From NCBI GenBank assembly GCA_019694215.1, contig JAIBCK010000009.1, forward strand, positions 1 through 53,560: a DNA stretch of 53,560 nt, in the 5' to 3' direction. Made by a program: the position numbers and the translations under genes. The notes under the pieces were generated by a model. It was not told the DNA's origin, ran no database searches, and was given only the letters and a program-made list of their open reading frames with translations. Position 1 is the stretch's first letter; each line of letters opens with the position of its first letter. The DNA is from Thermoflexales bacterium. GTDB lineage: Bacteria; Chloroflexota; Anaerolineae; J036; Brachytrichaceae. Positions 8,864-12,940 of the stretch are shown in pieces.

Positions 8864-8875
8864 CGCACAAGTCAA

Positions 8876-9595
8876 CGCATCATCCGCGCGCAAGGGGCAC
8901 ACCGCACCCGTGCGGGCGCACCGATGTGCGCCCAACGTAACGCACGCCCAATCGGCGAACGCGTCGCATCCGCGCCCGTACCCCGCGACCCGCACGGGCG
9001 AAATCGGGACGCATGTCCATGCGCCCCTACGGCCTTGGCGATTGGCCCGCCCCCCGTAATGCACCCCGCCCAACCCGCGAACACGCCCGTACCCCGCGAC
9101 ACACACGGGCCGACACCGGGGCGCATGTCCATGCGCCCCTACGGCCTTGGCGATTGGCCCGCCCCCCGTAATGCACCCCGCCCAACCCGCGAACACGCCC
9201 GTACCCCGCGACACACACGGGCCGACACCGGGGCGCATGTCCATGCGCCCCTACGGCCTTGGCGATTGGCCCGCCCCGCAATCCGGGACACCTGGAACGC
9301 CGTACCCGTGGGGCGCACGATGTGCGCCTCACGTAATGCACGCCCAATCGGCGAACGCGCCCGTACCCCATGGCCCGCGTGGGCGAAATCGGGGCGCATG
9401 TCCATGCGCCCCTACGGCCTTGGCGATTGGCCCGCCCCGCAATCCGGGACACCTGGAACGCCGTACCCGTAGGGGCGCACGGATGTGCGCCCCACGTAAT
9501 GCACGCCCAATCGGCGAATGCGTCGCATCCGCGCCCGTACCCCATGGCCCGCATGGGTGAAATCGGCGTACATGTCCATGCGCCGTACGCGCCGC
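8876..9595. repeat. REP/BIME hairpin array, left of RAYT
   Basis: The 771-nt gap between the TPR gene and the RAYT gene is filled by alternating palindromes. P1 has the form GGGGCGCAC-GGAT-GTGCGCCCC (for example 9472-9493; older copy 8914-8933). P2 has the form GGGGCGCAT-GTCC-ATGCGCCCC (for example 9391-9412; others near 9008, 9120 and 9230). The conserved linker GGCCTTGGCGATTGGCCCGC recurs between them. P1 is preceded by GTAG on the plus strand and P2 by GTAG on the minus strand, so they form inverted REP pairs (BIMEs). The last copy before the transposase (about 9570-9595) is degenerate. Confidence 0.88.
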
Positions 9596-9608
9596 TTCGC
9601 ATCACACG

Positions 9609-9614
9609 TATAAT
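9609..9614 (+). promoter_or_regulatory. consensus -10 of RAYT gene
   Basis: A perfect TATAAT lies 11 nt before an in-frame TTG (9626) and 20 nt before the ATG at 9635. A weak Shine-Dalgarno leaves the start choice open. Confidence 0.5.
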
Positions 9615-9634
9615 GTTCACGCACATTGCGCACC

Positions 9635-10165
9635 ATGGACAATCGCGACGCCGACCACCATAGGCATTCCATTCGTTTGAAGGGCTACGACTATGCCCAG
9701 CCCGGCGCATACTTCATCACGATTTGCACCCACAATCGCGAACGCATATTTGGTGAGGTCGTTGACGTAGGCGTTCGTCTGAGCGAATACGGAGGCGTAG
9801 TCCGAGACGAATGGTTGCGCACAGCCTCCGTGCGCCGCGAGGTGATGCTGGATACCTTCATTATCATGCCCGACCACATGCATGCCATCGTCATGTTCCG
9901 CGACGAGGGCTTCGAGGCGTCCATGCCTTTGCCCCCCTCAACCGGCCTGCATCGTCGGCCCCGGTCATTGGCGACGTTGGTTTCGGGGTTCAAGGGCGCC
10001 GTGACATCGCGCATCAACACCGTGCGCGGGACGCCGTCGCAACCGGTTTGGCAACGCAATTACCATGAGCGGGTCATTCGCGATGAGGCCGCCTTGGCGA
10101 AAATGCGGGAATACATCGTGACAAATCCCGTGCGTTGGATGCATCGCCGCGACCCATCTCATTGA
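9635..10165 (+). CDS. REP-associated tyrosine transposase (RAYT, Y1_Tnp/IS200-like)
   Basis: This is a 176-aa single-domain HUH nuclease. Landmarks are 'YDYAQPGAYFITICTHNRE' near the N-terminus, the HUH-type pair H81/H83 in MPDHMHAIV, and the putative nucleophile Y143 in WQRNYHERVIR. RAYTs cut and join single-stranded REP DNA, and their targets usually carry a GTAG-type tetranucleotide at the stem foot. The gene sits inside a REP array with REP pairs on both sides and nothing resembling IS ends. That is the REPtron arrangement, where the transposase is host-maintained and disperses REPs rather than itself. The start is ATG 9635 or TTG 9626 (three more residues). All catalytic residues look intact. 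Confidence 0.92.
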   Translation: MDNRDADHHRHSIRLKGYDYAQPGAYFITICTHNRERIFGEVVDVGVRLSEYGGVVRDEWLRTASVRREVMLDTFIIMPDHMHAIVMFRDEGFEASMPLPPSTGLHRRPRSLATLVSGFKGAVTSRINTVRGTPSQPVWQRNYHERVIRDEAALAKMREYIVTNPVRWMHRRDPSH

Positions 10166-10184
10166 CGTGGCGTGTGCCGTACCC

Positions 10185-11668
10185 GTAGGGGCGCACGGAT
10201 GTGCGCCCCACGTAATGCGCGCCCAATCGGCGAATGCGTCGCATCCGCGCCCGTACCCCGCAACCCGCGCGGGCCGACACCGGGGCGCATGTCCATGCGC
10301 CCCTACGGCCTTGGCGATTGGCCCACCCCGCAATCCGGGACACGGGGAACACCGTACTCATGCGGGTGCACGGATGTGCGCCCCACGTAATGCACGTCCA
10401 ACCCGCGAACGCGTCGCATCCGCGCCTGTACCCGCGACCCGCGCGGGCGAACTCGGGGCGCATGTCCATGCGCCCCACGTAATGCACGTCCAACCCGCGC
10501 ACGCGCCCGTACCCCATGGCCCGCGTGGGCCGACACCGGGGCGCATGTCCATGCGCCCCTACGGCCTTGGCGATTGGCCCGCCCCGCAATCCGGGACACG
10601 GGGAACGCCGTACCCGTGCGGGCGCACGATGTGCGCCTCACGTAATGCACGCCCAATCGGCGAACGCGTCGCGTCCGCGCCTGTACCCGCGACCCGCGCG
10701 GGCCGACACCGGGGCGCATGTCCATGCGCCCCTACGGCCTTGGCGATTGGCCCACCCCGCAATCCGGGACACGGGGAACACCGTACTCATGCGGGTGCAC
10801 GGATGTGCGCCCCACGTAATGCACGTCCAACCCGCGAACGCGTCGCATCCGCGCCTGTACCCGCGACCCGCGCGGGCGAACTCGGGGCGCATGTCCATGC
10901 GCCCCACGTAATGCACGTCCAACCCGCGCACGCGCCCGTACCCCATGGCCCGCGTGGGCCGACACCGGGGCGCATGTCCATGCGCCCCTACGGCCTTGGC
11001 GATTGGCCCGCCCCGCAATCCGGGACACGGGGAACGCCGTACCCGTGCGGGCGCACGATGTGCGCCTCACGTAATGCACGCCCAATCGGCGAACGCGTCG
11101 CGTCCGCGCCTGTACCCGCGACCCGCGCGGGCCGACACCGGGGCGCATGTCCATGCGCCCCTACGGCCTTGGCGATTGGCCCACCCCGCAATCCGGGACA
11201 CGGGGAACACCGTACTCATGCGGGTGCACGGATGTGCGCCCCACGTAATGCACCCCGCCCAACCCGCGAACGCGCCCGTATCCCGCGACCCGCGCGGGCG
11301 AACTCGGGGCGCATGTCCATGCGCCCCTACGGCCTTGGCGATTGGCCCACCCCGCAATCCGGGACACGGGGAACACCGTACCCGTAGGGGCACACGGGTG
11401 TGCGCCCCCCGTAATGCACCCCGCCCAACCCGCGAACGCGCCTGTACCCGCGACCCGCGCGGGCGAACTCGGGGCGCATGTCCATGCGCCCCTACGGCCT
11501 TGGCGATTGGCCCGCCCCGCGATCCGGGGCCGGGGCACACCGTACCCGTAGGGGCGCACGATGTGCGCCTCACGTAATGCACGCCCAATCGGCGAACGCG
11601 TCGCGTCCGCGCCTGTACCCCACGACACGCACGGGTGAAATCGGGGCGCATGGACATGCGCCCCTACG
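10185..11668. repeat. REP/BIME hairpin array, right of RAYT
   Basis: The 1.5-kb gap between the RAYT gene and the PLP-enzyme gene is REP array throughout. It opens with a perfect P1 palindrome (10188-10209) whose GTAG starts 20 nt after the RAYT stop. It ends with a P2 variant (about 11643-11668) 12 nt from the end of the PLP gene. Over both array halves I count about 11 P1 and 15 P2 hairpins, some decayed. I see no real gene here; long open frames are translations of the repeat. Confidence 0.9.
10263..11120. repeat. exact tandem duplication, 2 x 429 bp
   Basis: Bases 10263-10691 are repeated as 10692-11120 with no difference that I can find. A third partial copy (about 130 bp) follows from 11121. 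Each 429-bp block holds several P1 and P2 hairpins. The perfect identity points to recent unequal recombination or replication slippage. Confidence 0.85.
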
Positions 11669-11680
11669 CGACGCTACACC

Positions 11681-12940
11681 CTACGCACAATGGGCAAGGG
11701 CCTGGGCGAGGTCGGCGATGAGGTCATCCGGATGCTCGATGCCAATGGACAACCGCACCATCGCATCCGTGATGCCCCCCTCGATGCGATCCTCGGGATC
11801 GACCTCGGCATGCGTCATCGTGGCGGGATGCTCGGCCAACGATTCATTGCCACCCAAGCTCACCGCCAGATGGAACAACTTGAGGTTATTCAGGAAGGCG
11901 AAGGCGGCCGCCTTGCCGCCCTTCAAGTCAATTGAGATCATGCTGCCGGCCCCGAGACACTGCCGGTCAAAGATCGCGCGCTGCTCATCACCCGCCGCGA
12001 GGTGGCCCAGGTAATACACCCGCTCGACCGCAGGATGCCGGGCCAGATAGTCGGCGACAACGCGCGCGCCGGCCTGCTGGGCCTCCATCCGCAACTTCAT
12101 CGTTTCGAGGCTGCGCGTGAGCATCCACGCCGTATGAGGACTGCACGTTGTTCCAAACATCGCCCGCATCAGCTTGACCTCATTGAGCAGCTCGACCGGG
12201 CCGGCACAGACCCCCGCCAGCAAGTCGCTGTGGCCACCGATGTATTTCGTGGCCGAGTACAGCGTCAGATCGGCGCCATGGTCGCTCGGGCGCTGAAAGA
12301 GCGGGCCGAGGAAGGTGTTGTCGATCGCCACCAGCGTCCGCCGGTCCGGCCGCGAGGTCTTGCGCGCGAGGGCGACGCACTCCCCGATGTCGGCCATCGC
12401 GTTGGTCGGATTGCTCGGCGTCTCGGCGTAGATCATGCGCAGGTGCTCGCTCACGCCCGGCTGGGCAAGCGCAGCCCGCAGCCCGGCGTTGCCATCCCGC
12501 AGGCGGAACCCCACCGGGCGGATGCCAAAGCGGGTCAGGATGTGCTTCAGGACGAAATCCGTGCAGCCGTAGCAGGGCTCGCTGAAGACGATGACATCGC
12601 CGGGATTGAGGAAGGCCATGAAGACGGCGGTGATCGCCGCCATCCCGCTGTCAAACACCGCGCACGCTTCGGAGCCATCCCACACCGCCATGCGTTTCTC
12701 GAACACCGCCAGGTTCGGATTGGTGTCGCGCCCGTAGATATACGTGTTCGAGAAATCCTCGTCCTCGCGCTTGGGCCGCAGGTTGTTGATGACCTGGCAG
12801 TACTGCTCGGCGTCCTCCACCCGCTTGAAGGCAAAGGTCGAGGTGAGGTAGATCGGCGGCTTGACGCTGCCGCTGGCCAGATGCGGGTCGTAGCCCAGAC
12901 GCATCATTTCGGACTCGGGATGGGGGTTGGTTTGGCTCAT
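11681..12940 (-). CDS. Cys/Met metabolism PLP-dependent enzyme (cystathionine gamma-synthase / methionine gamma-lyase family)
   Basis: This 419-aa, fold-type I enzyme has the Schiff-base lysine K232 in SATKYIGGHSD, the substrate loop segment YIYGRDTNPN and SGMAAITA for phosphate binding. Family members make cystathionine, sulfhydrylate O-acyl-homoserine or cleave methionine; sequence alone does not decide between them. A Shine-Dalgarno (ggag) precedes the ATG. The gene ends 12 nt from the last REP hairpin, which could stabilise its mRNA 3' end. hom, which makes the homoserine precursor, lies about 5 kb away on the same strand. Confidence 0.9.
   Translation of the reverse strand: MSQTNPHPESEMMRLGYDPHLASGSVKPPIYLTSTFAFKRVEDAEQYCQVINNLRPKREDEDFSNTYIYGRDTNPNLAVFEKRMAVWDGSEACAVFDSGMAAITAVFMAFLNPGDVIVFSEPCYGCTDFVLKHILTRFGIRPVGFRLRDGNAGLRAALAQPGVSEHLRMIYAETPSNPTNAMADIGECVALARKTSRPDRRTLVAIDNTFLGPLFQRPSDHGADLTLYSATKYIGGHSDLLAGVCAGPVELLNEVKLMRAMFGTTCSPHTAWMLTRSLETMKLRMEAQQAGARVVADYLARHPAVERVYYLGHLAAGDEQRAIFDRQCLGAGSMISIDLKGGKAAAFAFLNNLKLFHLAVSLGGNESLAEHPATMTHAEVDPEDRIEGGITDAMVRLSIGIEHPDDLIADLAQALAHCA

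Follow-up and report, generated by a model that had tools for sequence, protein, structure and literature searches.

A RAYT gene within a dense array of inverted GTAG REP pairs in an uncultured Chloroflexota lineage

The array and the gene it surrounds

The convergent intergenic region 8864-11680 (2.8 kb) of the window, by which we mean the whole stretch of 53,560 nucleotides that was analysed, lies between genes for a TPR protein and a Cys/Met-metabolism PLP enzyme and is filled by 26 short palindromes and one small gene, annotated here as a RAYT (TnpA-REP) gene (Table 1). The palindromes, located between 8910 and 11667, are of two types, 11 copies of P1 on the plus strand (consensus GTAGGGGCGCACGGATGTGCGCCCC, including a 1-nt-shorter variant) and 15 copies of P2 on the minus strand (consensus GTAGGGGCGCATGGACATGCGCCCC as read on that strand), so that the preliminary description of this DNA, which had estimated about 26 palindromes of two kinds around a RAYT gene, had the number exactly. 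It had also described P1 with a GTAG foot on the plus strand and P2 with one on the minus strand as inverted pairs, which we find as well and which agrees with the inverted GT[AG]G-footed REPs expected beside a RAYT gene. Not all copies keep GTAG: the foot is intact in 16 of the 26 REPs and lost in 10. Loss is more frequent in P1 than in P2, with GTGC, ATGC or CGTG in place of GTAG in 7 of the 11 P1 copies. Part of the array has therefore decayed and may be inactive.

P1-spacer-P2 units with GTAG outermost (a REPIN or HH dimer) alternate with a second spacer, the array has a regular spacing of 165-173 bp and a tandem structure, and the 429-bp duplication listed in Table 1 is a recent local amplification of the BIME unit. 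When folded as DNA, the P1 and P2 hairpins each have a z of about -5 compared to shuffled sequences, whilst a P1-S1-P2 unit forms one long hairpin of -47.1 kcal/mol (z -4.75), as is characteristic of a BIME or REPIN. A 4-nt loop had been proposed for both types; the GGAC loop of P2 can close by one extra G-C pair to a 2-nt GA loop, although for P2 DNA folding prefers the 4-nt form. Both stems are perfect, and the base of the stem is G-C rich (GTAG-GGGCGCA...), with the three G-C pairs of a canonical long REP. By inspection, the dinucleotide CT, at which the RAYTs of E. coli and S. maltophilia cleave, does not lie immediately 3' of P1 or P2, and CA directly follows P1; in vitro, group 2 and 3 RAYTs process their substrates at CT or CA (Corneloup et al., 2021, PMC8266576). 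A literature search using the REP head GTAGGGGC matched no REP paper.

Table 1. Coordinates of the features of the array and its neighbours in the window.
Feature	Position	Strand	Remarks
TPR protein gene	ends 8863	+	left neighbour of array
REP P1	8910..8934	+	foot decayed (GTGC)
REP P2	9006..9030	-	GTAG intact
REP P2	9118..9142	-	GTAG intact
REP P2	9230..9254	-	GTAG intact
REP P1, 1-nt-shorter variant	9307..9330	+	foot decayed (CGTG)
REP P2	9391..9415	-	GTAG intact
REP P1	9469..9493	+	GTAG intact; last well-kept REP upstream of RAYT gene
REP P2	9561..9588	-	strongly decayed; located by eye
RAYT (TnpA-REP) gene	9635..10165	+	176 aa from ATG; 179 aa from TTG 9626
REP P1	10185..10209	+	GTAG intact; 19 bp past RAYT stop
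Tandem duplication block, 429-bp unit	10263..11253	.	562 bp exact identity at offset 429 from 10263
REP P2	10282..10306	-	GTAG intact
REP P1	10360..10384	+	foot decayed (ATGC)
REP P2	10455..10479	-	foot decayed (CGTG)
REP P2	10538..10562	-	GTAG intact
REP P1, short variant	10616..10639	+	foot decayed (GTGC)
REP P2	10711..10735	-	GTAG intact
REP P1	10789..10813	+	foot decayed (ATGC)
REP P2	10884..10908	-	foot decayed (CGTG)
REP P2	10967..10991	-	GTAG intact
REP P1, short variant	11045..11068	+	foot decayed (GTGC)
REP P2	11140..11164	-	GTAG intact
REP P1	11218..11242	+	foot decayed (ATGC)
REP P2	11306..11330	-	GTAG intact
REP P1	11384..11408	+	GTAG intact
REP P2	11471..11495	-	GTAG intact
REP P1, short variant	11548..11571	+	GTAG intact
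REP P2	11643..11667	-	inverted loop (GTCC), GTAG intact
Cys/Met-metabolism PLP enzyme gene	12940 to 11681	-	stop at 11681; right neighbour of array

The RAYT protein and its relatives

The RAYT gene is present as a single copy in the genome with its reading frame intact. Its GC content (59%) is lower than that of the array (70-72%) and of the window (68%), and a TATAAT sequence lies at 9609-9614, 20 bp 5' of the ATG. In order to assign catalytic residues we used a direct alignment to the E. coli TnpA-REP sequence of the crystal structure 4er8, a RAYT-REP complex, weak when taken alone (E 0.69), with residue roles in 4er8 (catalytic tyrosine, GTAG contacts) taken from the literature (PMC6006769; PMC8266576). 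The motif H81-M82-H83 pairs with the HuH motif of 4er8, in agreement with the earlier reading of H81 and H83, whilst Y143, previously named as the catalytic tyrosine, pairs with F98; it is Y160, in the motif YIVTNP, that pairs with the catalytic Y115. W139, Q140, E145, R146 and R149 pair in the same alignment with W94, Q95, E100, H101 and R104, the residues that contact GTAG. Across 34 aligned proteins H81, H83, Q140, Y160, N164 and P165 are invariant. The protein thus combines a HuH motif with a single catalytic tyrosine in a Y---NP motif, as expected of a RAYT, and has W139-Q140 and only 11 residues after P165, with no conserved C-terminal extension.

An AlphaFold2 model of the protein (mean pLDDT 86.5) was closest by VIA-align to 4er8, with a Z of 13.4 over 127 residues and an alignment that extends to residue 173, followed by IS200 proteins with Z of at most 12.1 over ~103 residues and ending near residue 153. 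Foldseek placed ISDra2 first by E-value and 4er8 at rank 8, although amongst its Y1 transposase matches 4er8 had the highest query-length TM-score (0.60 versus 0.46-0.52) and the lowest rmsd (2.2 A). The protein matched the NCBIfam profile NF047646 (REP_Tyr_transpos) at 3.6e-21 and 75.6 bits, below the 80-bit cutoff, and a Pfam search with it gave no match, so that RAYTs of this group may be under-annotated by standard profiles.

Proteins of this RAYT type were found in 11 of 28 genomes of the family and 83 of 199 genomes of the class, and at 72 named loci from many phyla. A tree was generated from 75 proteins, the E. coli RAYT sequence in it being identical to that of 4er8; bootstrap values were not fully settled, with strong support for the key branches. 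IS200 proteins split off at 100/99, contrary to the placement with ordinary IS200 transposases that would have told against the preliminary description, and the window RAYT falls in a 53-member clade (99/97) and, within this, in a 28-member subset (98/97) where Chloroflexota stand beside Myxococcota, Bacteroidota, Acidobacteriota and Pseudomonadota. In the 99/97 clade members of these phyla and of Fibrobacterota interleave, and the 75-protein tree contains no Chloroflexota-only branch. With regard to the host, the PNPase encoded in the window is 59%, 57% and 58% identical to those of named Anaerolineae, Anaerolineales and Ardenticatenales, and 44-51% to those of other phyla, which is consistent with a member of the Chloroflexota, the phylum that had been thought likely, near Anaerolineae.

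Were the locus an ordinary insertion sequence of the IS200/IS605 family, bounded by hairpins, it would share the Y1 HuH superfamily fold seen in the model, yet its TnpA would carry Y---Q rather than YIVTNP (PMC6006769), the tree separates the window RAYT from that family, PF01797 has no match anywhere in the genome, and the REPs far outnumber the single-copy gene. We consider this identity extremely improbable and reject it, having found neither the Y---Q motif, nor PF01797, nor a place in the IS200 clade.

A GTAGGG palindrome lies within 1.5 kb of the RAYT gene in 43 of the 59 named loci examined, compared to 0.08% for shuffled sequences, and across phyla nearly all REPs at the relatives' loci start with GTAGGGGC, i.e. 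the foot and the base of the stem. In 26 of 46 relatives with an intact Y motif a REP lies inside the gene, between HuH and Y, where it keeps the reading frame and shares the GTAGGGGC head, again across phyla; the window gene has no such in-gene REP. That of one family member, G022 (locus L030, G022:C2:552199-552744), GTAGGGGCGCACGGCTGTGCGCCCC, is one base away from P1. The regular spacing and tandem structure in the window would also suit an unrelated tandem array (CRISPR-like repeats or clustered terminators) that lies next to the RAYT gene by coincidence. We find this scarcely credible and reject a CRISPR-like array, given that palindromes with the GTAGGGGC head occur beside or within the RAYT genes of relatives from many phyla, that the spacers of the array repeat and are not unique, and that the window gave no match in Rfam (nor in a tRNA scan).

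REPs across the genome and the family

With up to 3 mismatches allowed, the REP consensus matched the genome 36 + 34 times and a reversed control never did. Once merged, the matches amount to 69 sites, of which 22 lie in the window and 47 elsewhere, and they confirm the expectation, made from the window alone, that REPs would occur elsewhere in the genome; cognate REPs are dispersed as expected for a RAYT. The search pattern originally suggested, GTAGGGGCGCAnnnnTGCGCCCC, has 4 and not 6 loop positions, matches no REP exactly and finds P1 only at 2 mismatches. The 47 outside sites are located at 15 contig ends on 14 contigs, with the nearest REP no more than 135 bp from the contig end in 14 of the 15 cases, whilst such end zones make up less than 2% of the genome. 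The assembly was therefore probably interrupted by multi-unit REP arrays, and the genome most likely holds more copies than were counted. The REP-bearing contigs of this genome (G000) are C6, C34, C42, C51, C54, C81, C84, C85, C89, C111, C120, C126, C136 and C173 (loci L123-L137). The 3' end of C6 and the 5' end of C111 share a window-type spacer, and such spacer matches could be used to join contigs.

A stem-only search found GTAG in front of 39 of the outside copies (~46 with diagnostic loops), the opposite foot being variable. In each of the 10 arrays that hold both types, P1 is on one strand and P2 on the other, and contig C173 has two P2 copies in opposite orientation. The arrays outside the window have in common the REP and a few bases that flank it, whilst their spacers differ or have diverged, a pattern to be expected were the REP the unit that is dispersed. 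Two shorter variants of the REP, GTAGGGGCGCATCGCATGCGCCCC and GTAGGGGCGCATGGCATGCGCCCC, with starts 88 bp apart, were seen only with a looser pattern search, at G000:C35:32092-32203. A search of family genomes for an empty site, via orthologues of the flanking PLP enzyme, gave two distant matches only and no empty-versus-filled site.

Exact GTAGGGGC...GCCCC sites number 50 in the window genome versus at most 17 in any of the 27 other family genomes, from which the exact window REP stem is nearly absent, making this the largest such REP expansion among the 28 family genomes, the set that the corrected REP census covers. The pattern GTAGGGGCN{9,11}GCCC has a gap too short for the window REP, and the class-wide census was left out of the evidence. 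Another family genome, G013, has 17 REPs on many contigs, most of them single and dispersed and almost all of one type, GTAGGGGCGCATTGCGTGCGCCCC, without the dense arrays of the window genome; its RAYT match lies at a contig edge (C167).

The specificity of the full REP stem to the window genome within the family would favour a Chloroflexota-specific, independently evolved RAYT-REP branch, in line with the preliminary suggestion of an independent branch of the system. We regard this as very unlikely and do not retain the suggestion: the window RAYT sits inside the multi-phylum 99/97 clade in which the Chloroflexota members form no clade of their own, the same GTAGGGGC head is found in other phyla, and both the group (PMC6006769) and GTAG repeats in Chloroflexi (PMC3733652) had been described before.

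A REPtron of known type and its proposed working

We are highly confident that the locus is a REPtron, in which a single-copy RAYT of subclass 2.4 / group 4 type lies amid cognate GTAG REPs whose inverted P1-P2 pairs have multiplied to form a BIME array in tandem, and the preliminary identification of a RAYT/REPtron is borne out by motifs, flanking REPs, tree and fold. Systems of this kind are known from many phyla, and the locus, clear and well preserved as it is, is largely ordinary, the block being unusually dense.

To the observed gene, motifs, fold, REP copies, strand rule, tandem duplication and clade-wide REP association we add, by analogy with the tested TnpA-REPs of groups 2 and 3, that the RAYT would bind, cleave and mobilise REPs and so be the maker of the repeats. 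The protein would bind the hairpin that a REP forms in single-stranded DNA, reading its GTAG foot with the W139-R149 region; Y160 would then cut near the hairpin, with H81 and H83 as metal ligands, through a covalent 5'-phosphotyrosine intermediate, and the ends would be rejoined. REPs or REP pairs could thereby be seeded at new intergenic sites, and each block could then grow as units are duplicated locally in tandem, whether through recombination between them or through slippage during replication. More speculatively, and in our judgement unlikely, one RAYT would serve both P1 and P2, whose relative strands are fixed throughout the genome, and would drive BIME blocks of several kilobases at some 8-16 loci; if true, RAYT-dependent array growth, beyond REP dispersal, could be watched in a tractable case.

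A decayed or domesticated REPtron would agree on the identity of the locus and differ as to present activity: the RAYT would no longer mobilise REPs, and the arrays would persist and grow by tandem duplication only, perhaps because they terminate transcription, form mRNA ends or provide sites for gyrase where two genes converge. The exact 429-bp tandem duplication, the decay of 10 of the 26 feet, the position of the array between convergent genes and the single RAYT copy all speak for this, and we hold it to be a possible though doubtful reading given that the catalytic residues and reading frame of the RAYT are intact and that the outside copies, near-identical over 14 contigs and with GTAG in 39 of ~46, fit recent dispersal.

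The REPtron itself has been well documented before and is extended here into an uncultured lineage of Chloroflexota. Across many phyla the REP head of this RAYT group stays the same, GTAGGGGC, whilst the upper stem and loop vary with the genome, and such a series is natural material for the question of how RAYTs choose their repeats, the biochemistry that we found covering groups 2 and 3 only (PMC8266576). The locus also carries a warning: arrays of this kind probably break up metagenome assemblies, and the RAYT gene can go unnoticed in standard annotation.

Amongst known systems the nearest is subclass 2.4 of the class 2 (Y---NP) TnpA-REPs, equivalent to group 4 of Bertels (Quentin et al., 2018, PMC6006769). 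This subclass has WQ, YIxNNP and NH[IFV]H motifs, no C-terminal extension, long canonical GTAG REPs with three G-C pairs at the base of the stem or double-foot REPs, in-gene REPs (between HuH and Y) that predominate without being universal, and hosts in Cyanobacteria, Bacteroidetes and various phyla (PMC6006769). The window RAYT and its clade appear to match it, an assignment made from motifs and REP habits: the HuH, W-Q and Y---NP motifs, the lack of a C-terminal extension, the long HuH-to-Y distance, the canonical GTAG REPs, which are long and G-C paired at the foot of the stem, the scatter of the clade over many phyla and, amongst the relatives, the frequent in-gene REPs all correspond. The window protein departs from the subclass consensus at two motif positions, with DHMH in place of NH[IFV]H and YIVTNP in place of YIxNNP, whilst NH.H and YI..NP prevail amongst the clade members; its gene has no REP inside it and is flanked by a dense array of 26 REPs.

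The IS200/IS605 TnpA proteins of IS608 and ISDra2 share the HuH-Y1 fold, and differ in their Y---Q motif, their separate clade and their existence as mobile multi-copy IS. For Chloroflexota the comparison is with T. roseum, which we take to be Thermomicrobium roseum, a species of that phylum. GTAG-23 repeats clustered in blocks were reported from T. roseum (Di Nocera et al., 2013, PMC3733652) and may be comparable to the window REPs. Finally, as in the E. coli REPtron (4er8, BIMEs), the RAYT gene lies between inverted pairs of GTAG REPs that belong to different sub-types, and W94, Q95, E100 and R104 of the E. coli protein are conserved as W139, Q140, E145 and R149, whilst the E. coli enzyme is a group 2 protein with a C-terminal tail, its H101 is replaced by R146 in the window RAYT, and its REPs are bulged where P1 and P2 are perfect stems.
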